In this document: positions 8,700 through 32,880 of the stretch, one piece after another | Numbering within the stretch: position 1 is the first letter of the stretch | How the letters are laid out: every line of letters begins with the position of its first letter | NCBI RefSeq assembly: GCF_013839515.1 | Contig: NZ_JACDNQ010000021.1 | Coordinates: 1-36,775, forward strand | DNA length: 36,775 nt | Direction of reading: 5' to 3' | DNA from: Natronomonas salinimetallica | GTDB lineage: Archaea; Halobacteriota; Halobacteria; Halobacteriales; Haloarculaceae | Notes under the pieces: generated by a model | The model's database searches: none | Seen by the model: the letters and a program-made list of their open reading frames with translations, nothing else | Told to the model about the DNA's origin: nothing | Translations under genes and position numbers: made by a program

Positions 8700-9836
8700 A
8701 TGAGTGATCATATCGGCGCGCCGGGACGAGGTATCTCACGACGCGAGTTCTTGACGGCGACCGGCGGAACCGGAGCTCTCTCGCTTGCGGGCTGTTCGGA
8801 GCCGATCGACAGCGCCCTCGGAAACCAACCGACGAAACAGGTAGACGACGAACTTCCGCCGACCAGCCCGCCCGAGATCGTCAACGTCGACGAGCAGGGT
8901 GGCTCTGTAACGCTCTCGTCGGTGACCTCCAGGCATCCGATCCATCCGCTCGAGTCGATGGGTGGGCCGGTCGAACTCCCGCGTGTCTGGGCGTTTCAGG
9001 CCGACGATCGCGAGCCGAGCGTCCCCGGTCCGATCCTCCGGACGACCGAGGGCGAGGACATGGAAGTGACGCTCGACAATACCGACGCGAGCCACCCTCA
9101 CACGGTTCACTTCCACGGCGTCCAAAAGAGCTGGGAGAACGACGGCGTACCGACGACGACGGGTATTCAGGTCGATCCCGGTGAGCGATACACCTACACC
9201 ATCCCCGCGAACGTGCCGGGGACACATCTCTATCACTGCCACTACCAGACCCACCGACACATCGACATGGGAATGTACGGGATCCTCCGGGTCGATCCCA
9301 AGGGCTACGAGCCGGCCGACAAGGAGTACTTCCTGACGCTCAAAGACTGGGACTCCCGGCTCTCACGGACGATGAACGGCGAGGATCTCGACTACAGTCC
9401 GCGTAATCGGACCCCCGACGTGTTCACGATGAACGGCAAGAGCCTGCCCCGGACCATCCATCCAGAAGAGGGATCGCCGATCATCGTCGATTCGGGTGAC
9501 ACCGTCCGGCTCCATCTCGCCAACTCGGGCTACATGTCGCATCCAATGCACCTCCACAACCACCGCTACCGACTCGTCGCCAAGGACGGTGGCCGGGTTC
9601 CCGAGGCCGCCCAGTACGAGCAGGACATCACCAATATCGCGCCCGCAGAGCGCCACACCATCGAGTTTGAGGCCGATGCCGACCCCGGCATCTACCTCAT
9701 GCACTGTCACAAGGTCAACCACGCGATGAACGGGAACTTCTACCCCGGCGGGATGGTCAACGCCATCGTCTACCGCGATGCCATGGACTCGGACGTCTTC
9801 GCACAACTCATGGAGTACGCGGGCTACGACGGGTGA
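8700..9836 (+). CDS. Tat-exported two-domain multicopper oxidase lipoprotein
   Basis: The protein is 378 residues. The N-terminus has a Tat motif (SRREFLTATGG) and a lipobox LAGC at Cys32, so it is probably anchored outside the membrane. Domain 1 has HPHTVHFHG (about 132-140) and HLYHCHYQTHRHIDMGMYG (about 176-194: Cys180, His185/187, Met190, type 1 copper). Domain 2 has SHPMHLHNHRY (about 280-290) and YLMHCHKVNHAMNGNFYPGGM (about 332-352). This is the layout of two-domain laccases and copper nitrite-reductase-like oxidases. The substrate is unknown; nitrite, metal ions or phenols are all possible. A TATA-like TATTTAG lies about 15 bases upstream. The stop codon abuts the repeat element at 9837. 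Confidence 0.9.
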   Translation: MSDHIGAPGRGISRREFLTATGGTGALSLAGCSEPIDSALGNQPTKQVDDELPPTSPPEIVNVDEQGGSVTLSSVTSRHPIHPLESMGGPVELPRVWAFQADDREPSVPGPILRTTEGEDMEVTLDNTDASHPHTVHFHGVQKSWENDGVPTTTGIQVDPGERYTYTIPANVPGTHLYHCHYQTHRHIDMGMYGILRVDPKGYEPADKEYFLTLKDWDSRLSRTMNGEDLDYSPRNRTPDVFTMNGKSLPRTIHPEEGSPIIVDSGDTVRLHLANSGYMSHPMHLHNHRYRLVAKDGGRVPEAAQYEQDITNIAPAERHTIEFEADADPGIYLMHCHKVNHAMNGNFYPGGMVNAIVYRDAMDSDVFAQLMEYAGYDG

Positions 9837-14706: not shown

Positions 14707-14839
14707 CCTCGACGATGCTGTACGCGTGCTCTTTCAGATGGATCAGCCCGAGACCTTCGAGCCACCGTTCACGAACCCGCTCTGCATACCGACCAGTCCG
14801 ACGTGACGCTTGAAGACGTGCGTCGAAACCGGCTGTGAA
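14707..14839 (+). pseudogene. Decayed DUF5615 toxin gene, 3' part
   Basis: The bases encoding LDDAVRVLFQ and, after a frame change, VTLEDVRRNRL-stop match the intact toxin gene at 15553-15894 (LDDTAGVLFQ and VTLEYVSRNWL-stop). The DNA for GTGCTCTTTCAGA and CAGTCCGACGTGAC is identical in both. The 5' two-thirds are missing and the middle is scrambled. It abuts the left copy of the 197-bp direct repeat and is probably the remains of a second related element. Confidence 0.75.
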
Positions 14840-14848
14840 CTACCCCTA

Positions 14849-15045
14849 CTGGTTCGTACAGGCCCAAACCGCAAGAAGGAAACCGAACTGGGATGCTCCG
14901 TCAGGGATTCGAACCCGATGCCAGACCTCACTTCGTTCGGTCTGCCGTGATTCGAATCCCTTCCGTGCGCGCTTCGCTCCCTCGTAAAACTCGGTCGCTG
15001 TAGTGCTCCGTCAGGGATTCGAACCCTGGTCCTTGCCGTGAGAGG
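14849..15045. repeat. 197-bp direct repeat, left copy (distal att side)
   Basis: It is nearly identical to 19777-19973 at a constant offset of 4928 bases. It contains, at its right end, the 3' 34 bases of tRNA-Glu (15012-15045), and about 119 bases further left another T-arm/acceptor fragment (14893-14914). The two copies diverge exactly in the tRNA anticodon loop. Confidence 0.9.
15012..15045 (-). other. Partial tRNA-Glu 3' half (distal attachment site)
   Basis: On the minus strand this reads from the anticodon loop through the anticodon 3' stem, T-arm and acceptor 3' strand of tRNA-Glu, with no 5' half. This is the usual remnant left when a tyrosine integrase inserts into the 3' half of a tRNA gene and the intact gene is rebuilt at the other end (19932-20006). 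Confidence 0.85.
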
Positions 15046-15265: not shown

Positions 15266-15553
15266 ATGGGTATGAGCCAAGTGGCGGGACGGATCGTGCG
15301 CGAACTCCACGATGAGCCACATCTCGACGGTCGACGGATTACGGTCCAGTTCATCAAAGAGCAAATCGAGGACCGTGGACTCACCCCCAGAACGGTTGCC
15401 GATCGTCACGATCTCGACGTGGCAGATGTCTACCGGGCGCTTACCTACTATCACGACCACCCCGAGGAGATGCGCGCTGTCGAACGGCAGCGCGATGCCG
15501 CGATCGAGGAGCACGAGCACCTGACGACCGATCCAAACGACGTACGTGGCTGA
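15266..15553 (+). CDS. DUF433 antitoxin
   Basis: The protein is 95 residues (or 93 from the ATG at 15272, which fits a leaderless start from the TATA-like site at 15246). The DUF433 pattern is seen: HLDGRRITVQFIKEQIEDRGLTPRTVADRHDLDVADVYRALTYYHDHPEEM, a three-helix HTH-like fold, with a charged C-terminus that probably neutralises the toxin. Its stop codon overlaps the toxin start (TGATG), so translation is coupled. DUF433/DUF5615 pairs are predicted type II toxin-antitoxin modules. Its position just inside the distal att repeat fits a role in keeping the island. Confidence 0.88.
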   Translation: MGMSQVAGRIVRELHDEPHLDGRRITVQFIKEQIEDRGLTPRTVADRHDLDVADVYRALTYYHDHPEEMRAVERQRDAAIEEHEHLTTDPNDVRG

Positions 15554-15894
15554 TGGGGTATCGGATTCTTGCCGACGAAAACGTCGAACGGGCGACGATC
15601 AACTATCTCCGGAAGCTCGACCACGATGTCGAATGGATCGGTGATGTTGAGGAACTCGGACTCGGTTCCGATGACGACTCGATCGCTGCGTATGCACGAG
15701 AACGGAACCGTCTCATACTCACGCAAGATGACGATTTCTTCACGCAGTTGCACCTCGACGATACTGCAGGCGTGCTCTTTCAGAAGGATCGGACGCTTTC
15801 AGCCCGAGAGGTCGGAGACATCGTTCACGAACTCTCCCAGTATGTCGATCAGTCCGACGTGACACTCGAATACGTGAGCCGAAACTGGCTGTAA
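15553..15894 (+). CDS. DUF5615 (Mut7-C-like PIN) toxin
   Basis: The protein is 113 residues. The PIN-like fold starts YRILADENVERATINYLRKLDHDVEW (ADEN, first acidic position), has DDSIAAYARERNRLILTQDDDFF (the conserved T-x-D-x-D-F) and ends VTLEYVSRNWL. These acidic residues would hold a metal for RNA cleavage. It overlaps the DUF433 antitoxin by one base. A decayed second copy of this gene's 3' end lies at 14707-14839, outside the distal att. Ribonuclease activity is inferred from the family only. Confidence 0.88.
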   Translation: MGYRILADENVERATINYLRKLDHDVEWIGDVEELGLGSDDDSIAAYARERNRLILTQDDDFFTQLHLDDTAGVLFQKDRTLSAREVGDIVHELSQYVDQSDVTLEYVSRNWL

Positions 15895-15957
15895 ATTTTA
15901 CATCTCCCCTCTCAGTAGTTAATATAAATTGACGTGTTATACACTCTCGATGGTCAG

Positions 15958-16557
15958 TTACTCGACGACGAACGCGCCGTCGAGATACATGTAGTCATGG
16001 CCGTATCCACAGTCCGTGTGACAGATCGGCGTGTAGTCACCACGTTCGGACGCGGAGAGTCGTGCTGTCGTCGTCGACGTTGCGTCGGCCGGGAGCGGGA
16101 TGGGCCGAAGCATCATGCCCCCCTCGCCCATATGGCCCATGTTCCGCCCCGAGGGCATGACCGCGAGGCTGTGGTCCGGATACTTCTCGTTTGCCTCTTC
16201 GAGTACGTCGTGCAGATCGCCGTTCGAAGGCGGTGGAATGCGTTCTTCGTTTCGCTCTTCGAGCGTTTCGTGATCCGGGATCGCCTCTCGGACGGCAGCC
16301 GGCAGTTTCTCTAGGGCAGTCTCTGCGCTCGTGTTGAACGCGACGATCTCGACGGAGTCTCCGCTATCGAAGGTGATTCGATCGTGTTCGGTTCCGGTGT
16401 CGTCTACCAGGATGAACCCCCAGTGATAGGACCCGACATATACCGTCGTATCGAATGCTCTCCGACTACCAGTGATCCCGTTAGACACGCATCCGGAAAG
16501 CGCAGCGACCGCACCCCCAGCGACGGACAGGAACCCACGACGACGTAGGGATGCCAT
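15958..16557 (-). CDS. Tat lipoprotein with a complete CuA (COX2-like) copper site
   Basis: The protein is 199 residues. The N-terminus MASLRRRGFLSVAGGAVAALSGC gives a Tat motif and lipobox (Cys23). The C-terminal part carries a CuA set like cytochrome oxidase subunit II and NosZ: His129 in PDHSLAV, then CHTDCGYGHDYM with C179, C183, H187 and M190. Thr181 replaces the usual Glu between the cysteines. Strands YVGSYHWGFI and DSGDSVEIVAFN match the cupredoxin barrel; a Met/Gly loop (NMGHMGEGGMM) is unusual. An overlapping GTG at 16567-16569 could be an alternative start. It is last in an operon with DUF302 and SHOCT genes. It probably transfers electrons or copper outside the membrane; the partner is unknown. 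Confidence 0.8.
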   Translation of the reverse strand: MASLRRRGFLSVAGGAVAALSGCVSNGITGSRRAFDTTVYVGSYHWGFILVDDTGTEHDRITFDSGDSVEIVAFNTSAETALEKLPAAVREAIPDHETLEERNEERIPPPSNGDLHDVLEEANEKYPDHSLAVMPSGRNMGHMGEGGMMLRPIPLPADATSTTTARLSASERGDYTPICHTDCGYGHDYMYLDGAFVVE

Positions 16558-16565
16558 TGCAGTGA

Positions 16566-16913
16566 TCACTCGTCCGTTTTAAGCGTTTCTCGTCGGTTTT
16601 CAAACTCCTCGTCCGAAAGATCGCCACGAGCGTAGGCCACTCGAAGCTCCTCGAGTGCATCGTCGCGGGACTCCTGGTGACCGATGAGTCGGCGAGCGAG
16701 TAGATAGCCGCCGCCGAGAAGAACGATCAAGAACGCGAACTGGAGGACAACGCTGACGATGCTGTATCCGCCGTCGCTGTAGGGGCCACTCATCATCCCG
16801 CCGTATCCCATCATCCCCATTCCGCCGAACCCCATCATCAGGAGCGGCCAGAGGAGGAGGATACCGAGAACAACGAGTATGACTGTCGTGAGGTCACTCC
16901 GAGTCTCCGACAT
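16566..16913 (-). CDS. Two-TM SHOCT-domain membrane protein, Met/Gly-rich loop
   Basis: The protein is 115 residues. Two transmembrane segments (LTTVILVVLGILLLWPLLMM, about 8-27, and IVSVVLQFAFLIVLLGGGYLLA, about 49-70) flank a Met/Gly loop (GGMGMMGYGGMMSG) that could bind copper or another soft metal. The C-terminus is a SHOCT motif (ALEELRVAYARGDLSDEEFENRRETL). I chose the ATG at 16911-16913, one base after the DUF302 stop. The upstream in-frame extension is only antisense to DUF302. Its stop overlaps a possible GTG start of the CuA gene. Exact function unknown. Confidence 0.82.
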   Translation of the reverse strand: MSETRSDLTTVILVVLGILLLWPLLMMGFGGMGMMGYGGMMSGPYSDGGYSIVSVVLQFAFLIVLLGGGYLLARRLIGHQESRDDALEELRVAYARGDLSDEEFENRRETLKTDE

Positions 16914-16914
16914 T

Positions 16915-17319
16915 TCAGTCCACCTCGGTTTCGTTGACGGCAGCCAGAACACGTTCGAATCGCTCGGTAACCTCGGTCGCGATGGAGTCAAGCGCGTCGT
17001 TATCCGCGATACCGACCAGCTGTTCCGGGTCAACTGCACTCACCACGATATCGCCGTTATCATCCTCGTAGACGATGACGTTACAGGGCAAGAGCGCACC
17101 GAGTTCGGTTTCCGCGTTCAACCCTTCGTATGCCAGCGGCGGATTGCACGCACCGAGAATCCGATACTGACGGAACTCCTCGCCGAGTTTCTCTTTGAGC
17201 GTCGCCTGAATGTCGATGTCACAGAGGACGCCGAATCCCTCATCTTTGAGTGCAGCGTTCGTCGCGTCGACGACATCGTCGAATTCACCGGTAACTGTGG
17301 TCTGTATTGTGTATTCCAT
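16915..17319 (-). CDS. DUF302 family protein
   Basis: The protein is 134 residues and cytoplasmic (MEYTIQTTVTGEFDDVVDATNAALKDEGFGVL ... YRILGACNPPLAYEGLNAETELGALLPCNVIVYEDDNGDIVVSAVDP). The ACNPP and LLPCNVIVYE motifs are diagnostic of DUF302. Family members are common near heavy-metal, copper and redox genes, but the biochemical role is not established. It is first in a three-gene operon (DUF302, SHOCT, CuA lipoprotein) with one-base spacings. Upstream are a TATA-like TTAATACTT (about 17345-17353) and a perfect palindrome, CCGTTAACGG, between it and the start codon. Confidence 0.88.
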   Translation of the reverse strand: MEYTIQTTVTGEFDDVVDATNAALKDEGFGVLCDIDIQATLKEKLGEEFRQYRILGACNPPLAYEGLNAETELGALLPCNVIVYEDDNGDIVVSAVDPEQLVGIADNDALDSIATEVTERFERVLAAVNETEVD

Positions 17320-17332
17320 GAAAATTCATACT

Positions 17333-17342
17333 CCGTTAACGG
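17333..17342. promoter_or_regulatory. Palindromic operator candidate before the DUF302 operon
   Basis: CCGTTAACGG is a perfect 10-bp palindrome 14 bases upstream of the DUF302 ATG and immediately downstream of the TATA-like element. A regulator bound here would block the polymerase. The regulator is not in the island as far as can be seen. Confidence 0.4.
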
Positions 17343-17423
17343 GGTTAATACTTTGGGCCCGCCGCGACAGCCGTCGGGCGGGCGTCGTTTTGAATGATAC
17401 TTCCTCTATTTCGTTCATTTGGA

Positions 17424-17771
17424 CTATTCAAGCTGTTTTCGTCGTCGTTGGAACTCCTCCTCGGAGAGTTCACCGCGGGCATAGCGCTCCCGGAGAACCG
17501 AAAGCGGCCGGCCGTTTTTCTCCTCTGAATCGCTGTTGAGAAGCGCGTAGCCGAGATAGAGCGGCACGCCAATCAAGAGCCCCATCCAAAGGAGCCCCCA
17601 AAGGCCCATTCCTCCACCGAAGAGCCCCCAACCACCACCGCCCATCATACCGCCGTCGTGGCCTCCGCCACCGTGAGCAGCAGCGGTACCTGTTGCTGCA
17701 ACTAACAGCGGAACCGCGAGCATCGTAATTCGACGAATTGTCCGTCTGAGAGTTTTGGTGTAGTGTGTCAT
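17424..17771 (-). CDS. Secreted/membrane SHOCT-domain protein, His/Met/Gly-rich
   Basis: The protein is 115 residues. A signal peptide (ITMLAVPLLVAATGTAAAHG) is followed by a His/Gly/Met segment (HGGGGHDGGMMGGGGWG), one membrane span (LWGLLWMGLLIGVPLYLGYALL) and a C-terminal SHOCT motif (LSVLRERYARGELSEEEFQRRRKQL). It resembles the SHOCT gene at 16566 in design but not closely in sequence. It lies between the DUF302 operon and the small Met/His-rich gene, all on the minus strand, 104 bases upstream of the DUF302 start. A role in metal binding at the cell surface is inference. Confidence 0.82.
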   Translation of the reverse strand: MTHYTKTLRRTIRRITMLAVPLLVAATGTAAAHGGGGHDGGMMGGGGWGLFGGGMGLWGLLWMGLLIGVPLYLGYALLNSDSEEKNGRPLSVLRERYARGELSEEEFQRRRKQLE

Positions 17772-17835
17772 TGTGATCGTCGGTTTGGTAGTTCGAGTGT
17801 CTACGTTCTAGACGAGGGACTCCGGATAGGGACCG

Positions 17836-18150
17836 TTAGCAGCCGTGTCCCTGTCCGTTCATCCCGGCGGCGTGATCCTCATCCGCCATCTCTTGGGCCA
17901 TCTCGTCGACGGTCACGCCCATGTGCGCTTCCATCTCGTCAACGGCATCTGGTCCCATGTGATCGGTCATGTGACCATCCATCCAGGCCGCCCACTCCGC
18001 TGTATCACCATCGGCTGGCGTCCCTTCAGCTGCCGTCTCGTTCTCCTGGGCCGGTTCGTCACCGTGTGCGCTCACCACCGGCGCGGCGAGCGCGAGGCCG
18101 ACGAGCGCGAGCGCCACGAGCAGCCATCGTCCGAGGTTTTGGTTGGTCAT
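17836..18150 (-). CDS. Small secreted Met/His-rich protein
   Basis: The protein is 104 residues from the ATG at 18148-18150 (MTNQNLGRWLLVALALVG); the frame extends five codons further up, but that adds only MRRKT. A signal peptide ends near VVSAHG. The mature part is acidic and rich in Met and His (WMDGHMTDHMGPDAVDEMEAHMGVTVDEMAQEMADEDHAAGMNGQGHGC) and ends in Cys. This composition suggests soft-metal (copper or silver) buffering outside the cell. It is first in the minus-strand gene series of the island and 64 bases upstream of the SHOCT gene. No named family is recognised. Confidence 0.75.
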   Translation of the reverse strand: MTNQNLGRWLLVALALVGLALAAPVVSAHGDEPAQENETAAEGTPADGDTAEWAAWMDGHMTDHMGPDAVDEMEAHMGVTVDEMAQEMADEDHAAGMNGQGHGC

Positions 18151-18208
18151 TGTCTTTCGCCTCAAGTACTCATACGGTGGGTTCGGGGTTATCCTCGTGG
18201 GTGTGAAC

Positions 18209-18321
18209 TCAAACAGTAGACCGTCCGAGAACGTCTATAACGCCATCTAAACGTTTCCCTTCAACGAGACCGTCCATGCCTGCCGAATTCGAGGGAGTCT
18301 GAGATAATCGGGTGTGCCGGA
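18209..18321. other. Short gene-free stretch after the integrase remnant
   Basis: No convincing gene. A minus-strand frame at 18209-18277 could encode MDGLVEGKRLDGVIDVLGRS plus two residues, perhaps the tail of a deleted gene, but support is weak. Confidence 0.25.
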
Positions 18322-19575
18322 TCACTGTGTCCCTTGACCGTGTAGATCGTCGCTCGGGTAAACCCGATACGTCCGGCCTTGTCGTTCTCGGTAGAGTAGA
18401 CCGCGCTCTTCGAGTGAGCTCACGGTTTCGGGTGAGCGATATCGAAGCTGTGTCTGGGCCGCTGCAAGATCTTCTTCCCTTGTCATATAGGTTCCTAGAG
18501 CATGCCGCAGTGCATACCAACTCATTTGTCGATGCTCGGTGTCGATACCTGCAATCTCACACAACCGACGCAACAACCCGCCGAGTGATACTGGTGGACG
18601 AAATCAAATGAAACCGACTCACGAGTGATCCGCCGTTCGCTCCGTCGAGCGGCGTGATCCTCGTGCGTCGTGTGTACATTCTTTTGTCCGTCAGTATGAG
18701 GAACTCCCATACGGATTCTGCTTACGAGTTAGCCACAGTGTCTCTGTATTATCGTACATGGAGAAGTTCCGCCGCTGTTGACACCACTTTGACAGTACCT
18801 CAGCTGTTTTGTCCCGTAGTCCAACCACCCAGCGTTCTCTGTTCTTTGAACTGTCTTCCTTCGGAATACGGAGCACGCTGTTATCTGTATCCACCCACGA
18901 GACCGTTGCTCGTTCGACCTCGATTGGGCGAAGGCCAGCGTCAAGGCTGACCCACACCAACGAGGGAATCTTCCAGCCGTTGGCACGGTCCCAGTCATCC
19001 GGCGTCACATCCTCTTTCGGTTTCTCGAAGCGCTGGGCAAGGTATCGCTTCCAGCGGTCGCGTTCGGTCGGTGTGAGGTTGTTGTACGAGGGGACAGAGC
19101 CGTATTCAAGCGCAGCATCACGGATTGCTCGTCGCTCGTCTCGGGTGAGATACTCTCGCGGCTGCGTACTGGTATCTGCAGAGAATCGGAACTCCGGTTC
19201 CCACTCGCCTAACCCGCGTTCGTGATGAAGCCACTTGTAGAGCATCAAGAGCGACTTCATACAGTTTCGCTTGTGGGTTGCACTGACATCACGGCGCGCG
19301 AGGTGACCCATCCACGAGTCAGCATGGTCGTGGGAGAGATTGACCGTGTATCCCTCTTCGTGGTCCCACACGTAGCGGTAGAAGCGATCCATCCGATAAC
19401 ACCGCGGTTTGACCGTCCCCGGTGCGTAGCCGACCGCCTCTTTCGGGGTCTTTCCGAACGTCAACAGCCACTCCAGACAATCTTCTCGCTCCGCGCGGTA
19501 GTCAAGCAGCTGTCGTTCGTTCAGATACGATTCGGCCTTCTCCGTGACGACCGGGAACTCATCGAGGTCACTCAT
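18322..19575 (-). pseudogene. Tyrosine recombinase (integrase) interrupted by a MITE
   Basis: Residues 1-294 (start ATG at 19573-19575) cover the SAM-like core-binding domain and the start of the catalytic domain, including the first catalytic Arg in SLDAGLRPIEVERA. At 18697 a 108-bp insert brings an in-frame TGA. Beyond it the same frame resumes (LLRRLCEIAGIDTEHRQMSWYALRHALGTYM), with the second Arg. Taking out the insert and one TCA restores an uninterrupted reading frame through the joint. Even so, the usual LRHKS is LRYRS, and the nucleophilic Tyr segment is replaced by a tail resembling a winged-helix wing (LEERGLLYRERQGRTYRVYP). So the enzyme is doubly dead. It is located beside tRNA-Glu, as expected for the island's integrase. 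Confidence 0.85.
18589..18696. mobile_element. 108-bp MITE-like insertion in the integrase
   Basis: Terminal inverted repeats of 11 bp: TACTGGTGGAC (18589-18599) and, as complement at the other end, TACTGACGGAC (18686-18696), with 9 of 11 matches. The insert is flanked by TGA direct repeats (18586-18588 and 18697-18699), a 3-bp target duplication. It encodes nothing. Its family is not recognised; movement would need a transposase supplied elsewhere. Confidence 0.8.
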
Positions 19576-19776: not shown

Positions 19777-19973
19777 CTGGTTCGTGCAGGCCCAAACCGC
19801 AAGAAGGAAGTCGAATTTGGATGCTCCGTCAGGGATTCGAACCCGATGCCAGACCTCACTTCGTTCGGTCTGCCGTGATTCGAATCCCTTCCGTGCGCGC
19901 TTCGCTCCCTCGTAAAACTCGGTCGCTGTAGTGCTCCGTCAGGGATTCGAACCCTGGTCCTTGCCGTGAGAGG
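19777..19973. repeat. 197-bp direct repeat, right copy (tRNA side)
   Basis: It is nearly identical to 14849-15045. It includes the 3' half of the intact tRNA-Glu gene (19932-19973), 118 bases of shared noncoding sequence, and a further T-arm/acceptor fragment at 19821-19842. Confidence 0.9.
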
Positions 19974-20006
19974 GCAAGATGATTGGCCGGACTACACCAA
20001 CGGAGC
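19932..20006 (-). tRNA. tRNA-Glu (anticodon CUC)
   Basis: On the minus strand the gene starts GCTCCGT (20006-20000) and ends ACGGAGC plus discriminator A (19932). The anticodon arm is TTGCC-CTCTCAC-GGCAA, so the anticodon is CUC. The T arm contains GGTTCGAATCC. No intron and no encoded CCA are seen. A perfect 12-bp palindrome (CGGTTGCAACCG, 20009-20020) lies just upstream, with TATA-like stretches at 20020-20028 and 20039-20046. It serves as the attachment site of the adjacent island. Confidence 0.95.
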
Positions 20007-24481: not shown

Positions 24482-24577
24482 CCGACGGCGGCGTCCCCGT
24501 GACCGAAGGGCGCATCCACCGGCGGATTCGACCGCTATACCAGACGACATATCCGTTCCGATCGACGTGTTTTGAAT

Positions 24578-26470
24578 ATGTCGCTCCGAGTCGCAGTCGC
24601 GGTCATCTGTTGTCTCTTTGTTCTCGTCGGTGCCGCATCGTTCGTCGTCGCCCCGGAAGCGTCCGAGCCCGAACCGGCCCCCTTCGATCGGACCGTCGCG
24701 ATGGGGATGACGCTCGAAGAACAGCGCATGCTGGGGGCGGACCGATTCGCCCCGCGCGCGCAGGTCGCATACTCGCAGTTCCCCTACGTCGTGGGCTACC
24801 GCGGGATCGGCCTGGCGGCGTCCGCGGTCGATGACCCGCTCGTCGAACAGCAGTTCGGGTATCCACAGTCGGTCTACGTTGAGGCCGCGCCGTCGGACGT
24901 CTCTCTCGACGGGTCGGGGTATCCCGTCGGTGGATACACCGACGAGTGGATCCCCGCCGACGATGCACACGTCGTGGTCGACAGCGCCGCCCGTACCCCG
25001 TCGGGGCCGACGCAGTTGGCCTTCGCCGATCACGAACGCGCAGCCGAGTTCGCCGACGAGTACGGCGGCGAGGTCGTCGACTGGGACGACCGCGGCCGGT
25101 TCGACGTCCCGACCTCGGACGGCTCGACGGCCCGCAATCGGGTCGAGACACAGCACGAGGACGCCGATGCGACGGTCGAGGCGACCCGGGAGCTACTCGA
25201 CCGGCCGGTCGGGACCGTCGTCGGCGAGGACGAACCGACGCTTCGCGCCGCGCTCGATACCGCCGAGGCGAACACGACGATCCTGTTGCCGCAAGGCACC
25301 TACGAAGGCCCGGCCGAGGTCGACAAGCCGGTGACGATCCGCGGATCGAACGCGACCATCGAAGGCGACGGAAACGGCACCGTTCTCACGGTCACGGCCG
25401 ACGACGTCGCCATCACCGGCGTCTCCATCGAGGGGGTTGGCGAGTCCCTACATCCGGACGATTCCTCGAAGGCCAGCGATCGACCCGCCTGGGACCGCGC
25501 GACCGAGGAGGCCTACGGATACGCCGACGCTGCCGTGACCGCCGACAGCGTCGACCGACTGCTCGTCACCCGGAGCGAGGTCGAGAGCCCCGCATCGGGC
25601 ATCATCCTCAGGGACACGGATCGGGCCGTCGTCGATCGCGTCCGGTTCGAGGGGTCCGACAGGTGGCAGTCCGGCTTCATGGGTGTCACCGCGATCCGAT
25701 CGCCGGCGATCGTCCAGGACTCGACGTTCGACGGCGGACGGGACGGCGTGTACGCCCACCGCTCGAGCGGGATCACGATCCGTGACAACAACTTTATCGG
25801 CGGCCGCTTCGGCACTCACTTTATGTACACCTCGGAGGCGCTCTTTGCGGACAACTGCGCGACCGGGCAGGCGCTCTCCGGCGTCGTCATCATGACGAGC
25901 CCGTCGGGGATCGCCATCGCCGAGAACGTGATTACGGACACGAAGCAGGGGATCCTGACGAGCGGGTCAGACGTCTACGTCGGTGAGAACGTCATTGTCG
26001 GGACGGAACAGGGGATTTCGACGAGCGCGCGGAATTCCCTGTACGCCGATAACGCCGTCGTCGGGAACACGGTCGGCTTCCGTGCGTCATCGATATTCCC
26101 GACCAGCGTCGTCGTCGGCAACGACGTCGTCGACAACGACCAACACGTTCGAGCGACGAGCGGGCCGCTTCGGGTCTGGAGCAACGACGGCCGGGGGAAC
26201 TACTGGGACGGCGCTGCCGGACTCGATCGGCGCTACAGCCCGACGGATCCGGTCGACGGGCGGCTCCATCGAACCGGGGCGGCACGGACGCTCTCCGATG
26301 CGCCGATCGTTCGCGGACTCCGGACGCTTCGGGGGGAGGCACCCGGAATGCGTGGCGAGAGCGTCATCGACGCCCACCCCCGTTCGACGCCGGCCAACGC
26401 GACGCGGCTCGAGACGGCACAGGCGCTTGCGGACGGCGACGCGACGCTCCAGGGGGGGTGTGGTGCGTGA
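24578..26470 (+). CDS. nosD: NosD-like periplasmic copper-maturation protein with NosL-like N-domain (cassette 1)
   Basis: The protein is 630 residues. One N-terminal membrane segment (VAVAVICCLFVLVGAASFVV) is followed by a domain of about 140 residues like the C-terminal half of NosL (YSQFPYVVGYRG ... AHVVVDSAARTPSGPTQLAFADHERAAEFADEYGGEVVDW). A right-handed beta-helix of CASH/NosD repeats follows (GTVVGEDEPTLRAALDTAEANTTILLPQGTYEG ... SGITIRDNNFIGG ... FADNCATGQALSGVVIM). NosD works with NosF and NosY to deliver a component to the CuZ site of N2O reductase. I chose the ATG at 24578, about 27 bases after CATATCC. It overlaps nosF by four bases (GTGA). Confidence 0.88.
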   Translation: MSLRVAVAVICCLFVLVGAASFVVAPEASEPEPAPFDRTVAMGMTLEEQRMLGADRFAPRAQVAYSQFPYVVGYRGIGLAASAVDDPLVEQQFGYPQSVYVEAAPSDVSLDGSGYPVGGYTDEWIPADDAHVVVDSAARTPSGPTQLAFADHERAAEFADEYGGEVVDWDDRGRFDVPTSDGSTARNRVETQHEDADATVEATRELLDRPVGTVVGEDEPTLRAALDTAEANTTILLPQGTYEGPAEVDKPVTIRGSNATIEGDGNGTVLTVTADDVAITGVSIEGVGESLHPDDSSKASDRPAWDRATEEAYGYADAAVTADSVDRLLVTRSEVESPASGIILRDTDRAVVDRVRFEGSDRWQSGFMGVTAIRSPAIVQDSTFDGGRDGVYAHRSSGITIRDNNFIGGRFGTHFMYTSEALFADNCATGQALSGVVIMTSPSGIAIAENVITDTKQGILTSGSDVYVGENVIVGTEQGISTSARNSLYADNAVVGNTVGFRASSIFPTSVVVGNDVVDNDQHVRATSGPLRVWSNDGRGNYWDGAAGLDRRYSPTDPVDGRLHRTGAARTLSDAPIVRGLRTLRGEAPGMRGESVIDAHPRSTPANATRLETAQALADGDATLQGGCGA

Positions 26471-27192
26471 GCGATGCGCCGGTACTCCGGATCGATGGCG
26501 TCTCGAAGTCCTTCGGTACCGTCGAGGCACTCTCGGGCGTCTCGGCGTCGATACCCTCCGGCTCCGTCGTGGCCGTGATCGGCCCGAACGGATCCGGGAA
26601 AACGACGCTCGTTCGGATCCTCGTCGGGGACCTCCGGCCGACGGCCGGGACCGTCTCGTACGAGGGCCCCGACACCGAGCGCCCGATCGGCTATCTCCCG
26701 CAGGATCCGACGTTTCGGTCGGGCTTCAGCGCCGCCGAGACGCTCGCGTTCTACTCGTCGCTGGTCGAGGGCCGCGAGCCGGAGCCGCTGCTCGAACGGG
26801 TCGGGCTGGCGGCGGCGGCCGACCGGAACGTCGAGGACCTCTCCGGCGGGATGCGACAGCTACTCGGCATCGCGCAGGCGACGATCGGTGATCCGCCGCT
26901 CGTCGTCCTCGACGAACCCGCAAGCGGCCTCGATCCGAACATGAGCGAGAACGTCTTCGAGACCGCCGCGGAGATGGCCGGCTCGGGGACGACGGTACTT
27001 TTGAGCTCCCACGATCTGGCCCTCGTCGAGGAGACGGCCGATACGGTCCTCGTGTTGAACCGGGGGGGAATAGCCGCCTCGGGAGCTATCGACGCACTCC
27101 GCGAACAGTTCGACGCCGACTCCCTGCGCGACGTACTGAACGAGGTCGTCGGCGATACGAGCCGTGTCGCGGTCGTCGGGGGGAGCCGATGA
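26467..27192 (+). CDS. nosF: NosF-like ABC transporter ATPase (cassette 1)
   Basis: The protein is 241 residues and cytoplasmic. Walker A is IGPNGSGKTTL, the Q-loop is IGYLPQDPTF, the ABC signature LSGGM, Walker B LLVVLDEPASGLDP-like (PPLVVLDEPASGLDP) and the H-loop SSHDLAL. The GTG start at 26467 overlaps the nosD stop (GTGA), and the next gene overlaps its stop (ATGA), so the three are translationally coupled. It powers the NosDFY complex, which hands sulfur- or copper-related cargo to a periplasmic copper enzyme in known systems. Confidence 0.93.
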   Translation: MSDAPVLRIDGVSKSFGTVEALSGVSASIPSGSVVAVIGPNGSGKTTLVRILVGDLRPTAGTVSYEGPDTERPIGYLPQDPTFRSGFSAAETLAFYSSLVEGREPEPLLERVGLAAAADRNVEDLSGGMRQLLGIAQATIGDPPLVVLDEPASGLDPNMSENVFETAAEMAGSGTTVLLSSHDLALVEETADTVLVLNRGGIAASGAIDALREQFDADSLRDVLNEVVGDTSRVAVVGGSR

Positions 27193-28061
27193 GCCGGTTT
27201 CAGGGGTTCGGAGCCGTCGCCTGGCGGGAGGTCCGGACGGTCGTCCGGACGAGGAGCTATCTCCTCTTGTCCGTCGGGCTCCTCGCCGTGTTCGCCGGGA
27301 CGCTCCGCGCCGGCGGCGGGATCGAAGGGGGGTATATTCCGACCGCCGTCGATCTGCTCTTGCCGCTGGAGTTGCTCGTCCCGCTCGTCGCCGTGGCGCT
27401 CGGATACCGGGCTTTCGGCGGCGAAAACGACGATCGCCCAGTACTGTTGAGCTATCCCGTCTCGAAGGGATCGCTCGTCGCGGGCGTCTACGTCGGCCGA
27501 TTGATCGGGCTCGCGGGCATCATCGGTGGGCCTCTCCTCGCCGTCGGGGCCGCCGTCTCCCGAATCGGCGGGGCCGAATCACGGGTGTTTGCGACCCACC
27601 AGGGGGCCGACTCGCCGGTCCTTTTCGTCCGGTTTCTCGCGTTGACGGTCTGTTTCGGGGCCGTCGTGTTGGCGATGGCGATGGCGGCGTCGGTCCTCGT
27701 TCGGACGAGCCGGGCGGCGCTGGCGGCCGGGCTCGCAGTCCTCGTGGTCGTCGTCGCGGGCGGCGATCTGTTGGCGTTCCTCGGGCTCACGGCCGATGCG
27801 ATCGGCGAGGACGTCCTCGGGACGGTGCTCGGGGCGAGTCCGAACAGCGCCTACCGGGGGCTCGTCCTCGAATCCGTCGTCGGCGTGGCGACCGATCAGG
27901 GAGGCGCGATCGACGTATCCGCCGCGGTCGCCGGGCTCGCGGGATGGCTGGTGGTGAGCCTGGGGGCCGTCGTCGTCGGCATCGACCGCGAGCCGTTCGC
28001 GGGGATCCGGACCGGAATCGGCGAACTCACCGGTCGGGTAGCGGGCGCGTTGGATCGCTGA
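27189..28061 (+). CDS. nosY: NosY-like ABC transporter permease (cassette 1)
   Basis: The protein is 290 residues with about six transmembrane segments (for example YLLLSVGLLAVFAGTL, LLLPLELLVPLVAVALGYRA, LIGLAGIIGGPLLAVGAAV, FLALTVCFGAVVLAMAMAASVLV, ALAAGLAVLVVVVAGGDLLA, and a last one near the C-terminus). The pattern PLELLVPLVAVALGYRAF followed by RPVLLSYPVSKGSLVAGVYVGR is typical of NosY. It is last in the first cassette; 95 noncoding bases separate it from the second nosD. Confidence 0.9.
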   Translation: MSRFQGFGAVAWREVRTVVRTRSYLLLSVGLLAVFAGTLRAGGGIEGGYIPTAVDLLLPLELLVPLVAVALGYRAFGGENDDRPVLLSYPVSKGSLVAGVYVGRLIGLAGIIGGPLLAVGAAVSRIGGAESRVFATHQGADSPVLFVRFLALTVCFGAVVLAMAMAASVLVRTSRAALAAGLAVLVVVVAGGDLLAFLGLTADAIGEDVLGTVLGASPNSAYRGLVLESVVGVATDQGGAIDVSAAVAGLAGWLVVSLGAVVVGIDREPFAGIRTGIGELTGRVAGALDR

Positions 28062-28156
28062 CGCTCCCGTCCCGATAGCGCGTCCTCGGTACCTTTCGAG
28101 GCGCACACCAGACTACACAATACCGTCCGGTCCCGACGTCGGAACGTGAACGCGTG

Positions 28157-30235
28157 ATGTCTGCGGAGTCCCAACCGAGAATCGAAACCCGAACGGTCAC
28201 TGCGGTATCGATCCTCGTCCTCGTCGTCGGTCTCGTCGCCGGCCTGTTCATCGTCGATCTCGGATCTGCGACGCCGGAACCGGTCGATTTCGACGAGACG
28301 GTTTCGGTCGGGTTGACGCTCGAAGACGAGCTACGTTTGGATAATTCAGATGCCGACATCGAACTGCCGAAGGTCCAGACGTTTTACTCACAGTATCCCT
28401 ACGTCGTCGGCTACTACGGCGTCGAGTCCTTCGCCGCCGAACAGCGACAGCCGGCCCACGAACAGCGCTTCGGGTTCCCGAACGCCATTTACGTCACGGA
28501 CTACGCCGGGCGCGACGTCGAGTTGACCGAGACCGGACTGCCGGTCACCGGCAACTCGACCGCCGAGCGGACGGCGACCGGCGGCCACAACCACGGCGGA
28601 ACCGCCGGCGGGTCGGGAAACTGGGTGCTCGCAGAGGAGGCGGTCTACGTCGTCGACAGCGAGGCGCGGACCCCCTCCGGGGAGACGGTGATGCCGTTCG
28701 GCGACCGCGAGGCCGCCGAGGCCTTCGTCGAGTCCTACGGCGGTGAGATCGTTGGCTGGGAGGCGGTCCTGGAGGTCCCGGCGGGTGACGACGACGCCGA
28801 GGCCGTCCGGGGTCGGATCGCCGATCGCCACGCCGAGGCGAACGCGACCGTCGACTCGAGGACGCGACTGCGGGACCGCCCCGTCGAGACCGTCGTCGGT
28901 GAGGACGAACCGACGGTCCAGTCGGCCATCGAGGCGGCACCCCCGAACACGACGGTCCTCGTCCCCGAGGGAACCTACCGCGAGCACGTCGACGTCGACA
29001 AGCCCCTGACGCTCCGGGCCGACGGCGACGCACGGATCGTGGGGAACGACAACGGAACCGTCGTCACGATCACGGCCAACCGGACGGCGTTCGTCGGCTT
29101 GAACGTCTCCGGCGTCGGCGGCTCGACCCCCGGACCGACGGTGACTGACGGCCACAGCACCGGCAACGTCGGGGGGGCCAGCCACGACCACGGCGACACC
29201 GTCGGCGACGACTCCTGGGACGCGGACGTCGAGGACGACTACGCCCAGGGCGACACCGCCATCGAGGTCACGAACGCCGAGGACGTCCTCGTCGACGAGA
29301 CGGAGATCCACACCGACGCCGCGGGGATCATCCTCTATGCGTCGCCCGGATCCGTCGTCCGGGGGACGACGGTCGTCGGTAGCGAAAACTACCGCGAGGG
29401 CCACATGGGCATCGTGGCGATGCGCTCGCCGGGCGTCATCGAGAACTCGACGTTCGTCGGCGGCCTCGACGGGGTCTACACCCACCGCTCCGAGGGGATC
29501 GCCGTCCGGGGCAACGAGATGATCGACAACCGAATGGGGATCCACCTGATGTTCACCTCGGGGGCGCTCTTGACCGACAACGCGATGTCCGGCCAGGAGA
29601 CCGCCGGAATCTACGTGATGACCGGGCCACAGCGGAACGCCATCGTCGGCAACGAGATACGCGACACGGAGACCGCGATCAGCGTCGGCGGGACCGACAG
29701 CTACGTCGCCGAGAACGTGGTGACCGAAAACGACCTCGGCGTACGGATCGAGGCGACCGCCTCGATCGTCGAGCGGAACGTCGTCGCGGACAACCGCAAC
29801 GGCATCGAGGCGTGGGCGTTGCTCCCGACGAACCGAGTCACGCACAACGACTTCGTCGACAACAGGCGACACGTGTCGGTCAGCAGTGGCCGCCTCCGGG
29901 TCTGGACCCACGACGGCGAGGGCAACTACTGGGAGGGCGCGATCGGCCCCACCGACGGGACCGTCATCCAGCGGCCCTACACGCCGACGGCCCCGGTCGA
30001 CGGACGCCTCCACCAGGTCGACGGCGCGGCGACGCTCGCACGCGCGCCAGCGCTCGACGCGCTCGCGGGGTTTCAGGGGGCCGTCCCCGGGATGCGGGCC
30101 GACGAAGTGATCGACGTCGCACCGCTTTGTGCGCCCGTCAACGACGAGTGGTTCGAGGCGACGGAACGGACGGACACGGAGCCGATCTGCCGCTCGGGCG
30201 GCGGTTCGGCCGCGCAGACACGATACGATGACTGA
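28157..30235 (+). CDS. nosD: NosD-like protein with NosL-like N-domain and His-rich loops (cassette 2)
   Basis: The protein is 692 residues from the ATG at 28157. Membrane segment (VSILVLVVGLVAGLFIVDLG), NosL-like domain (YSQYPYVVGYYG ... AVYVVDSEARTPSGETVMPFGDREAAEAFVESYGGEIVGW) and NosD beta-helix (GVVED-like GEDEPTVQSAIEAAPPNTTVLVPEGTY ... EGIAVRGNEMIDN ... MFTSGALLTDNAMSG), as in its paralogue. It differs by His-rich insertions: GGHNHGG near residue 145 and SHDHGD near residue 343. These are absent from the first NosD and could bind metal. It overlaps nosF by eight bases. Confidence 0.88.
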   Translation: MSAESQPRIETRTVTAVSILVLVVGLVAGLFIVDLGSATPEPVDFDETVSVGLTLEDELRLDNSDADIELPKVQTFYSQYPYVVGYYGVESFAAEQRQPAHEQRFGFPNAIYVTDYAGRDVELTETGLPVTGNSTAERTATGGHNHGGTAGGSGNWVLAEEAVYVVDSEARTPSGETVMPFGDREAAEAFVESYGGEIVGWEAVLEVPAGDDDAEAVRGRIADRHAEANATVDSRTRLRDRPVETVVGEDEPTVQSAIEAAPPNTTVLVPEGTYREHVDVDKPLTLRADGDARIVGNDNGTVVTITANRTAFVGLNVSGVGGSTPGPTVTDGHSTGNVGGASHDHGDTVGDDSWDADVEDDYAQGDTAIEVTNAEDVLVDETEIHTDAAGIILYASPGSVVRGTTVVGSENYREGHMGIVAMRSPGVIENSTFVGGLDGVYTHRSEGIAVRGNEMIDNRMGIHLMFTSGALLTDNAMSGQETAGIYVMTGPQRNAIVGNEIRDTETAISVGGTDSYVAENVVTENDLGVRIEATASIVERNVVADNRNGIEAWALLPTNRVTHNDFVDNRRHVSVSSGRLRVWTHDGEGNYWEGAIGPTDGTVIQRPYTPTAPVDGRLHQVDGAATLARAPALDALAGFQGAVPGMRADEVIDVAPLCAPVNDEWFEATERTDTEPICRSGGGSAAQTRYDD

Positions 30236-30971
30236 GACAACCCAGACGACACCGATACTGACAGTCGAGGAGCTATCGCATTCGTACGGTCGCGTCGACG
30301 TGTTGGACGACGTCTCCTTGGACGTTCGCTCCGGCGACGTGACCGCCATCATCGGCCCGAACGGGGCGGGCAAGACGACGCTCATCCGGGCCATCGTCGG
30401 GCTGCGGGAGCCGACAGCCGGGGACGTCAGCTACCGAGGGCCGGACGCGGTTCGGCCGATCGGCTACCTCCAACAGCGGCCCGCGTTCCGACCGGGACAG
30501 AGCGTCAAGGAGGCGCTCACGTTCTACGCCTCCCTCGTCGGTGAGACCGACGCCGACGCCATGACGCGGCTCGAGCAGGTCGGGCTGGCCGCGGCGGCCG
30601 ACCGAAACGTCGAGGACCTCTCCGGCGGGATGACGCGGCTCGCCGGCATCGCGCAGGCGACGATCGGCGATCCGCCGCTCGTCGTCCTCGACGAGCCCGC
30701 CAGCGGCCTCGATCCGGGGATGAGCGTCCGGATCTTCGAGGTCGCCGAGGAGCTCACCGGGGCGGGGACGGCGGTGCTTTTGAGCTCTCACAACCTCTCG
30801 TTGGTCGAACGCGTCGCCGACCGGGTCGCGCTGCTCGACGACGGTTCGATCGCCCGGTGTGGGTCACCCGCCGAGATCCGTACCGAAGCCGGGTCGGACT
30901 CGCTGTTGAAGGCGTTCGAGTCGTCCGTCACCGGGGACGCGGGGACGGTCCGCGTCCGGGGGGAATCGTGA
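30228..30971 (+). CDS. nosF: NosF-like ABC transporter ATPase (cassette 2)
   Basis: The protein is 247 residues. Walker A IGPNGAGKTTL, Q-loop IGYLQQRPAF, signature LSGGM, Walker B PPLVVLDEPASGLDP and H-loop SSHNLSL. Its middle (VGLAAAADRNVEDLSGGM and IAQATIGDPPLVVLDEPASGLDP) is identical or almost identical to the first NosF, showing that the cassettes are paralogues. I chose the ATG at 30228, inside the end of nosD. The longer upstream frame is Arg/Ser-rich and only a shadow. It overlaps the next gene as GTGA. Confidence 0.93.
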   Translation: MTETTQTTPILTVEELSHSYGRVDVLDDVSLDVRSGDVTAIIGPNGAGKTTLIRAIVGLREPTAGDVSYRGPDAVRPIGYLQQRPAFRPGQSVKEALTFYASLVGETDADAMTRLEQVGLAAAADRNVEDLSGGMTRLAGIAQATIGDPPLVVLDEPASGLDPGMSVRIFEVAEELTGAGTAVLLSSHNLSLVERVADRVALLDDGSIARCGSPAEIRTEAGSDSLLKAFESSVTGDAGTVRVRGES

Positions 30972-31849
30972 GCACCCCGACGGAATCCCCGGAGACCTCG
31001 GGGGAGACGGCCGAACCGACCGAACCCGCACGCGGGCCGACCGGCCCCGGGATGCTCTTTGCCATCGTGCGACGGGAGCTCTCGACTGCGGTGGTGACGT
31101 GGACGTCCCTCGGGCTGTGGATCGGGGTGCTCGGAACCTTACTCGCCATCACGTGGTTCGGCGGGGGCGTCCAGGTCGGGTACGTCTCGACGATCATCGA
31201 CCTGTTGACGCCGCTGGAGCTTTTGATACCCGTCATCGCGTTCGTGATCGGCTACCGGGCAATCCTCGGGGACGAGCGCCGCGGCGTCCTCGACGTGTTA
31301 CGGACGTATCCAGTCAAGCCATGGCAGGTCGTTCTCGGGACGTACGCCGGACGCGCGATCGGACTCGTCGCCATCGTCACGACGGCGCTGTCGTTTCTCA
31401 TGTTCCCGATCGTCGTCACCGAATCGTACCGGCCCATCTTCTATGCGACCCATACCGGATCGAACTCTCCCGGGCTGTTCCTCCGGTTTATCGTTCTGAC
31501 AGCCTGTTTCGCAATGGTCGTCCTCGCCATCGCGATCGCGATCTCCGCGCTCGCCGGGACGACTCGAACCGCGATCACGGTCGCCGGGCTGGCGCTTTTC
31601 GCGTTGCTGTTCGGGGCCGACATCGGGCTCGTCTTCGCGCTCTCGCGGGGGTTGATCGCGGAGTCCTCGCTCGTCGCTTCGCTCGCGATCAGCCCGCTCA
31701 GCGCCTACCGGGGGCTGGTGCTCGAAACCACCGTGGCCGTCACTGCGGGCACCGGGCCGCGGACGGCCTCACCGCTTGCGAGCGCCGTCGGCCTCCTCGT
31801 CTGGTGGGTCGGGTCGCTCGCCATCGCGACGGTCGCGGTCGATCGGTAA
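30968..31849 (+). CDS. nosY: NosY-like ABC transporter permease (cassette 2)
   Basis: The protein is 293 residues from the GTG at 30968. After an N-terminal Pro/Thr/Glu-rich extension of about 35 residues, six membrane segments follow (LGLWIGVLGTLLAITWFGGG, LLTPLELLIPVIAFVIGYRA, AIGLVAIVTTALSFLMFPIVV, FIVLTACFAMVVLAIAIAISAL, TVAGLALFALLFGADIGLVFAL, and a C-terminal one). It shares with NosY 1 the periplasmic signature YATHTGSNSPGLFLRFIVLTACF (FATHQGADSPVLFVRFLALTVCF there). It is last in the second cassette. The 39-residue membrane protein lies 47 bases further on. Confidence 0.9.
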   Translation: MSTPTESPETSGETAEPTEPARGPTGPGMLFAIVRRELSTAVVTWTSLGLWIGVLGTLLAITWFGGGVQVGYVSTIIDLLTPLELLIPVIAFVIGYRAILGDERRGVLDVLRTYPVKPWQVVLGTYAGRAIGLVAIVTTALSFLMFPIVVTESYRPIFYATHTGSNSPGLFLRFIVLTACFAMVVLAIAIAISALAGTTRTAITVAGLALFALLFGADIGLVFALSRGLIAESSLVASLAISPLSAYRGLVLETTVAVTAGTGPRTASPLASAVGLLVWWVGSLAIATVAVDR

Positions 31850-31866
31850 AATCCGGCGTCGATCAC

Positions 31867-31875
31867 GTATATAGG
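31867..31875 (+). promoter_or_regulatory. TATA box of the 39-residue membrane protein gene
   Basis: GTATATAGG lies 22-30 bases before the ATG at 31897, the spacing for a leaderless message. It gives the small gene its own promoter. Confidence 0.55.
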
Positions 31876-31896
31876 CACCAGGAGTATAGGAGCAGC

Positions 31897-32016
31897 ATGG
31901 CTCGGCTGTATCGTGAACAGAGCATTCACCTGTTGATCCTGCTGTTGTTGCTCCTCGTCGGGCTGTTGTTGTGGACGTTCGCCACCGGGATCATCGAGTG
32001 GATCCCGGCCGTCTGA
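31897..32016 (+). CDS. 39-residue single-span membrane protein
   Basis: The protein is 39 residues (MARLYREQSIH, then a Leu-rich span LLILLLLLLVGLLLWTFATG, then IIEWIPAV). The basic N-terminus and hydrophobic core predict one helix with the N-terminus inside. A TATA box lies at the right distance and the gene sits in a tight slot between nosY 2 and the convergent nosL, which supports it being real. It could be an accessory subunit of the Nos complex or a small redox-chain protein. I know no family for it. Confidence 0.6.
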   Translation: MARLYREQSIHLLILLLLLLVGLLLWTFATGIIEWIPAV

Positions 32017-32103
32017 AGGCGTCCGATGGCCGGGGATATCACTCCGCGACGTCGTATACCCCGCCATCGCGGAGGGACCCAGGGGCGGCTCGGAGCCCGG
32101 CGT

Positions 32104-32751
32104 TCACATCCCGAGTCCGGAGAGGACTTCGCGCGTCACGTCGTCGTGGGCCAAACGCTCCCCGCCGTGTTCGTCGGCGAACGATTCGGCGTCGGCGTCG
32201 TCGGTGAACCCGATCAGCGACTTGCCCATCGCGCCCTCGACCTCGCTGTTGGCGACGAACGTGAGGTCGTGGAGGTCCGCGAACGATCCGGCACCGAGGT
32301 GGGCGCTTATTACTGTCGTTCCACTCTGGGAGTTGAGTTCGTAGTCGACGCTCGAGTAGTCGGTCCCATAGGAGATCGTCGGCTCGTGGCCCCGTTCCTC
32401 GTTCTCGAGCATGTAGTTGTACGTACAGGTGGTACTACAAAACCACGCGATGCCGTTCTCGCGGTCCTCGGGGAGCGACGGGGGAGCGTCGTCACCGTAG
32501 AACGACTCCCCGACCGGCCCCGGATGCATCTCGATCCGCATGTTACAGTAATCACACTCCTGGCCGTCATCAAGGGGGACGGGGTCCGGTCCACTTCGGT
32601 CACCGCCGAGACAGCCGGCGAGCGCGCCCACGCCGCCGACCGCGACGGCACTCAGGACGGTCCGCCGCGTTCGCCCGGCCTCGGTGTCCGATGGTTCGTT
32701 CGTGCTTCGGTGTCCGTGTTCGTTCATGCCTCGGTGTCCGTGTTCATTCAT
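32104..32751 (-). CDS. nosL: NosL copper-chaperone lipoprotein
   Basis: The protein is 215 residues from the ATG at 32749-32751. A His-rich N-terminal repeat (MNEHGHRG, MNEHGHRS) precedes a twin-Arg motif (RTRRTVLSAVAVGG) and lipobox LAGC (Cys47). The mature part has the NosL copper motif ECDYCNMRI (C66, C69, M71), a second pair IAWFCSTTC (C105, C109), and the C-terminal lobe (TFVANSEVEGAMGKSLIGFTDDADAESFADEHGGERL). NosL carries Cu(I) to N2O reductase with NosDFY. It converges on the second nos cassette. An ATG at 32725-32727 is an alternative start that would drop one repeat. Confidence 0.9.
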   Translation of the reverse strand: MNEHGHRGMNEHGHRSTNEPSDTEAGRTRRTVLSAVAVGGVGALAGCLGGDRSGPDPVPLDDGQECDYCNMRIEMHPGPVGESFYGDDAPPSLPEDRENGIAWFCSTTCTYNYMLENEERGHEPTISYGTDYSSVDYELNSQSGTTVISAHLGAGSFADLHDLTFVANSEVEGAMGKSLIGFTDDADAESFADEHGGERLAHDDVTREVLSGLGM

Positions 32752-32760
32752 GCTCGGATG
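32694..32760 (-). repeat. 24-bp tandem repeat at the nosL start
   Basis: Units begin at 32694, 32718 and 32742 (GTTCGTTCATGCCTCGGTGT and variants). They encode NEHGHR-type repeats and duplicate the start codon itself, so at least two possible starts exist. Confidence 0.85.
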
Positions 32761-32880
32761 TACGTGTTGAATAATGATAGCCTGTTTGGTGCGATACCGA
32801 AACGATCCACCGAGGCGAGCATACCGGGGCACTCCGTCGTCATGTGACGTGACGCTGCGGCGTCGCCGCGGCCGACGGAA

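Follow-up and report, generated by a model that had tools for sequence, protein, structure and literature searches.

A lipoprotein with a CuA-type cupredoxin domain in haloarchaea: a possible electron or copper relay in a mobile copper-response module

Introduction

What could a CuA domain do on its own, tethered to the membrane of a haloarchaeon? CuA is usually associated with oxidases and N2O reductase, PmoD being a recent exception: in PmoD, the CuA site is formed across a homodimer by the motif Cx7MxHxnC, and PmoD/AmoD proteins, which are tied to pMMO and AMO, have been reported from methane- and ammonia-oxidising bacteria (PMC6189053). The question is raised by a stretch of 36,775 nucleotides from Natronomonas salinimetallica (contig NZ_JACDNQ010000021.1; hereafter the window, meaning the whole stretch), in which a first-pass annotation had picked out a small gene for a stand-alone CuA domain. 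In the literature, we found no paper naming a family of free-standing CuA lipoproteins.

Results

An intact gene for a predicted Tat lipoprotein

Re-reading the translation confirmed the coordinates, strand and length of 199 residues given by the first-pass annotation, and the ligands it had numbered H129, C179, C183, H187 and M190 are all at their claimed positions. The gene and its ligand-bearing stretches, the latter computed from the ORF start, are:

15958..16557, minus strand: CuA lipoprotein gene, 199 aa, intact ORF, read from the translation
15988..16023, minus strand: CuA ligand loop CHTDCGYGHDYM, residues 179-190
16171..16173, minus strand: codon of His129, the first CuA histidine, in YPDHSLAV

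The protein consists of a Tat signal with lipobox Cys23, cupredoxin strands from residue 36, a helical insert at residues 79-125, a Met-rich loop at 140-149 and the CuA motif C179-HTD-C183-GYG-H187-DY-M190. Its N terminus, MASLRRRGFLSVAGGAVAALSGC, presents a twin-arginine motif followed by a lipobox; read at the sequence level, the twin-arginine motif and lipobox Cys of RRRGFLSVAGGAVAALSGC predict processing as a Tat lipoprotein. The Met-rich loop described earlier is indeed present (M140, M143, M148 and M149), and the reported absence of a COX2 membrane hairpin and of oxidase subunits nearby holds as well: the protein has the Tat/lipobox signal only, and COX1 and COX2 are absent from the window, their genes lying on other contigs of the genome.

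A fold closest to known CuA domains

In an AlphaFold model based on an alignment of 22 relatives (mean pLDDT 82; block averages mostly above 90, except in the first ~34 residues and in the Met-rich loop), the C-terminal part of the protein is a cupredoxin. Foldseek against the PDB ranked the CuA domain of Thermus ba3 oxidase first (2CUA, E 8e-6) and N2O reductase second. VIA-align superposed 93 residues on 2CUA (Z about 8.7, rmsd 1.9), and its list consists almost throughout of COX2 and N2O-reductase CuA domains (Z 8.1-9.7, about 93-104 residues, rmsd about 2 A). The family profile, searched against the PDB, matched the Thermus CuA at E 6e-4. The protein is a CuA-type cupredoxin in the broad sense, that is, a cupredoxin fold with CuA domains as best matches, and the fold match, the profile match and the ligand conservation described below support the stand-alone CuA domain proposed at first. 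The model of a Geothermarchaeota member was poor (pLDDT 58) and was left out of the fold evidence.

Pfam gave no useful E-value for the window protein or the 22 aligned relatives and no match to COX2 (PF00116), while the NCBIfam model CoxB (TIGR02866) matched residues 162-192 of the window protein at E 0.057 and 13 bits, with a cut-off of 147.7. The family carries about 45 mostly helical residues (79-125) ahead of the first CuA histidine, and this insert is probably the reason why COX2 models miss it. Against other CuA proteins, hhalign aligned only the C-terminal 31 columns (probability 96.5%), so the assignment of the first His rests on the motif, its spacing and a modelled strand starting at residue 129.

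With the COX2 CuA domain (PF00116; 2CUA, 1OCC, 1AR1), the protein shares the cupredoxin fold, the ligands (H, C-x3-C-x3-H-x2-M) and an aromatic strand aligned with the electron-entry region, but it has a ~45-residue helical insert before the first His, a Met-rich loop and a lipid anchor of its own. Membership in COX2 was excluded by the profile score below the cut-off, the missing N-terminal TM hairpin and Pfam match, and the missing COX1 partner, with no subunit I gene adjacent. The NosZ CuA domain has the same fold and ligands; however, the residue between its two Cys is Trp, whereas the window protein has Thr, and a protein of 199 aa without an N-terminal propeller and CuZ is not an N2O reductase. 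Like PmoD/AmoD, the window protein is a small, membrane-associated cupredoxin-type protein linked to copper genes and likely to carry CuA outside oxidases, but it has the classical single-chain ligand set; it was not assigned to PmoD, as Cx7MxHxnC is absent from it and no pmo or amo genes occur in the annotated neighbourhoods examined. CopI, compared here by its description, is also a cupredoxin-like extracytoplasmic protein with His/Met-rich segments that is implicated in copper tolerance, but it has its own His-rich N terminus (PMC13308877).

Conserved ligands and variable inserts

The family ranges over Halobacteria, two Geothermarchaeota and one actinomycete MAG. Among 47 distinct homologues, a collection pre-filtered on the Cys/Cys/His loop, the first His and the loop C, C and H are present in all 47 and the axial Met in 45. 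The expectation that homologues would lack none of the ligands is thus borne out except at the axial position of two outliers, an actinomycete MAG and the Euryarchaeota MAG Ods02 (L099:7621-8337 and L100:8001-8672), where Gln replaces Met. Because of this filter, the unbiased check of the ligands is a search with the whole protein and no motif requirement, in which the full motif was kept in all 21 full-length matches. Among ORFs reaching 100 aa, the window has a single C-x3-C-x3-H-x2-M, and 40 dinucleotide shuffles yielded none; together with the retention of the motif in the 21 relatives, this argues against chance.

The spacing between the first His and the first Cys is 35 in oxidases. Some relatives have a similar 35-37; the Met-rich loop widens the gap to 46-51 in the window's subfamily, and another subfamily, which has a Gly/Pro/His-rich insert, shows 83-137. 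Altogether, three subfamilies contain three kinds of metal-binding-looking insert (Met-rich, Gly/Pro/His-rich and His/Asp-rich), situated either in the stretch from the first His to the Cys pair or shortly ahead of that His. The first-pass annotation had considered Thr181 unusual for taking the place of a bridging Glu, a point that we do not uphold: the Glu between the Cys of COX2 is not bridging, and the axial ligand is its backbone carbonyl, so variation is expected, and T, V, R, E and H all occur at this site in relatives. Invariant throughout the family is the strand YHWG, which contains W46. This residue aligned with Thermus F88 in a weak HMMER segment and, judged by the start of the structural-alignment ranges and provided that the first strand is gap-free, falls at the position of Paracoccus W121 and bovine W104, which we take to be the electron-entry residue.

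A conserved operon context with copper genes

The window contains a short form of the operon, with the order Met/His-rich protein, SHOCT, DUF302, SHOCT, CuA:

17836..18165, minus strand: small secreted Met/His-rich protein, conserved at the operon head (start codon uncertain)
17424..17771, minus strand: second SHOCT membrane protein
16915..17319, minus strand: DUF302 protein
16566..16913, minus strand: Met-rich membrane protein with C-terminal SHOCT domain, directly upstream of the CuA gene
15943..18426, minus strand: module shared with N. gomsonensis (84.5% DNA identity); the part 15936-17484 is 93% identical to the XH8 plasmid

The long form comprises MBL, multicopper oxidase, Met/His-rich secreted protein, SHOCT, DUF302, SHOCT, thioredoxin, plastocyanin, two small Cys proteins, SHOCT and CuA. 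Whether DUF302 and SHOCT genes are constant neighbours, a question raised at first, depends on the gene and the subfamily: a Met-rich SHOCT membrane gene is found directly upstream on the same strand at 30 of 30 close-subfamily loci (gap 9-126 bp between alignment ends), but DUF302 is upstream at only 22 of the 30, and neither gene stands beside distant subfamilies. The Gly/His-rich subfamily has no conserved neighbour genes.

Recurring at the close loci are a plastocyanin-SHOCT fusion, a CopA-type multicopper oxidase, a copper ATPase, an HMA chaperone and the Met/His-rich secreted protein, a context that suggests a link to copper. The operon multicopper oxidase is nearest to the CopA model TIGR01480 (1.8e-86, below the model cut-off), and the ATPase encoded downstream in N. 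gomsonensis scores above the cut-off of the model for copper-translocating ATPases (609 bits versus 397). At least one copper marker (plastocyanin-type, multicopper oxidase, HMA or P-type ATPase) occurs at about 24 of the 30 close loci, a raw count over the fetched stretches that excludes the window's NirK-like gene and in which a few plastocyanin matches may reflect the shared SHOCT tail. Six loci, the window included, have none of the markers searched; the window operon holds no multicopper oxidase, plastocyanin or copper ATPase. As the operon plastocyanin is fused to a TM-SHOCT tail of its own, analogy suggests that the separate SHOCT protein may be the membrane partner of the CuA lipoprotein.

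Several operon copies have a further recurring protein nearby (L078:5653-6252), a candidate one-component copper or silver sensor. It combines a winged helix with what look like N-terminal TM segments, separated by a Met-rich loop; of its gene, the window retains only the last ~25 codons. Two loci (L066:8342-8488 and L071:1351-1497) have truncated copies: the SHOCT gene upstream is still there, but about 50 N-terminal residues are all that is left of the CuA protein, and at least two further genomes contain similar fragments.

Other copper and respiratory genes lie farther off. At 8700-9836, the window encodes a Tat-exported protein of the multicopper-oxidase family, NirK-like by length and domain make-up, and at 24572-32832 a Nos maturation cluster with two NosD-like proteins (also matching NosL), an ABC ATPase, ABC-2 permeases and NosL. 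The NosZ-type CuA protein of the genome is on contig C7, outside the window contig. The XH8 plasmid has an ordinary COX2 with CuA (L072:19034-20197) about 8.5 kb downstream of the stand-alone CuA gene.

A decayed tRNA island and a spreading operon

The gene had been placed on a tRNA island, and this is borne out by 197-nt direct repeats at a tRNA-Glu gene:

14849..15045, no strand: left 197-nt direct repeat, holding a partial tRNA-Glu 3' end
15266..15894, plus strand: DUF433/DUF5615 (PIN-like) toxin-antitoxin-like pair, unrelated island cargo
18347..18423, minus strand: remnant of a membrane winged-helix regulator, last ~25 codons, fused to an integrase fragment; intact in N. gomsonensis
18691..19575, minus strand: tyrosine integrase, truncated; C-terminal piece in another frame at 18322-18576
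19777..19973, no strand: right 197-nt direct repeat (97% identical), overlapping the tRNA-Glu 3' end
19931..20006, minus strand: tRNA-Glu (CTC), island attachment gene

The shared module ends within the membrane winged-helix regulator gene, and what remains of this gene is joined to the integrase fragment, making the island a decayed composite that has lost its regulator. With its integrase truncated, the island is probably not self-mobile. In N. gomsonensis, the operon is on contig C1 and the tRNA-Glu region on C2. A degraded second DUF5615 copy lies at 14743-14839, immediately left of the island repeat (78% over 97 nt to 15799-15895).

Horizontal spread of the operon is supported by sequence comparison. 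Matches to the CuA protein are patchy, occurring in 33 of 391 Halobacteria genomes from an evenly drawn sample (about 20 near full length) and, within the genus, in three of 20, of which one holds a fragment, and they are often on plasmids (18 plasmid records). Over 1549 bp, the window operon matches a plasmid from Haloferacaceae archaeon XH8 at 93% DNA identity, as against 84.5% for the same-genus N. gomsonensis, and in the tree host families are interleaved on very short branches. The earlier suggestion of travel between strains thus fits the operon, although the island that holds the window's copy has a broken integrase. Among the viral contigs scanned, there was no relative of the CuA protein and no sign of a viral carrier.

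Relatives outside Halobacteria

In Ca. Scotarchaeum and another Geothermarchaeota MAG, a family member heads a row of genes for a CuA protein with C-terminal TM, a NapH-like membrane ferredoxin, another CuA protein and a small Cys protein. Cassettes of CuA, NapH-like protein (a 480-aa membrane ferredoxin), CuA and Cys protein were seen at L097:7806-11324, L098:1486-4757 and L142:4778-7611; Ca. Scotarchaeum has the cassette twice, and the YHWG family member precedes one copy only. The cassette CuA proteins are likewise free-standing, with one window-family member directly adjacent, but they match COX2/Cupredoxin_1 Pfam models and the window family does not. The Scotarchaeum NosZ gene lies elsewhere, with NosD/F/Y-like neighbours. 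In the Nitriliruptorales (actinomycete) MAG, the family gene adjoins a gene for a DsrO/NrfC-like Fe-S ferredoxin, and the same contig carries a DsrP-like membrane subunit and CcmF/CcmA-like genes. The view that CuA is nearly confined to oxidases and N2O reductase needs amending for PmoD (PMC6189053) and for the further free-standing CuA proteins found here. The gene contexts in Geothermarchaeota and the actinomycete point to electron transfer, that in haloarchaea to copper handling.

Discussion

We infer that the best explanation joins these two contexts: a membrane-tethered CuA protein that relays electrons or copper within a mobile copper-response module, a reading to which we assign a probability of about 0.5. 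The lipoprotein would be exported by Tat, exposing an outer CuA-type cupredoxin domain with the family-specific helical insert and Met-rich loop, and would be held at the membrane next to the SHOCT membrane protein, where it would bind a dinuclear CuA centre. Cu(I) or its electron might be taken up near the Met-rich loop and handed to the module's plastocyanin-SHOCT protein or CopA-type multicopper oxidase, a one-electron, possibly copper, relay in an extracytoplasmic copper-response module. Since the window's module contains neither a multicopper oxidase nor a plastocyanin, the relay partner would be encoded elsewhere. Against a relay stand the lack of these genes and of the ATPase from the window operon, the six marker-free loci, the Gly/His-rich subfamily with its unconserved gene surroundings and the Gln outliers.

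But could the protein simply hold copper? As a copper buffer or metallochaperone, it would use its CuA-like site and Met/His-rich inserts to hold or pass copper outside the membrane, redox chemistry being incidental. The copper-handling gene context of the haloarchaeal loci suits this reading, the inserts that three subfamilies have close to or between the ligands, rich in Met, in His/Gly or in His/Asp, could equally serve copper storage, and the cupredoxin-like CopI of copper-tolerant bacteria provides a precedent (PMC13308877). However, storage requires neither the complete CuA set nor the YHWG strand to be kept over such divergence, and the relatives in Geothermarchaeota and the actinomycete have genes of Fe-S electron transfer beside them. 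We regard a buffer as the less probable, if serious, alternative to the relay.

An alternative electron donor to a terminal oxidase, NirK or NosZ is suggested by the NirK-type oxidase and Nos maturation cluster on the window contig, by the COX2 gene downstream on the XH8 plasmid and by NosZ in the Scotarchaeum genome. This respiratory role is unlikely: the island does not include the window's NirK-type and Nos genes, nos, nir and oxidase genes do not recur among the annotated plasmid neighbourhoods examined, and most genomes of the genus lack the CuA gene. A functionless COX2 domain, decayed or captured, for which the decayed island with its broken integrase and regulator remnant and the truncated or frameshifted copies in some genomes might speak, is very improbable, as the window copy is intact and intact relatives, about 53-74% identical, retain all ligands and the same upstream gene.

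Finally, we would like to place the relay reading into a broader context. Tentatively, and with slightly less than even confidence, we propose that free-standing CuA proteins of Halobacteria, Geothermarchaeota and Actinomycetota form a family so far uncatalogued, whose members may act as electron carriers beyond haem-copper oxidases and N2O reductase, linked to a NapH-like ferredoxin in thermophiles and recruited into mobile copper-detoxification operons in haloarchaea. If true, a single-chain, lipid-anchored CuA family with the full classical ligands, without a Pfam model and spread horizontally in operons linked to copper would widen the known use of CuA and offer a small natural soluble CuA for study. 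It would also make it testable whether CuA domains were separate carriers before they were fused or docked to oxidases and NosZ, and it would name a part of haloarchaeal copper resistance that is currently annotated as hypothetical protein.
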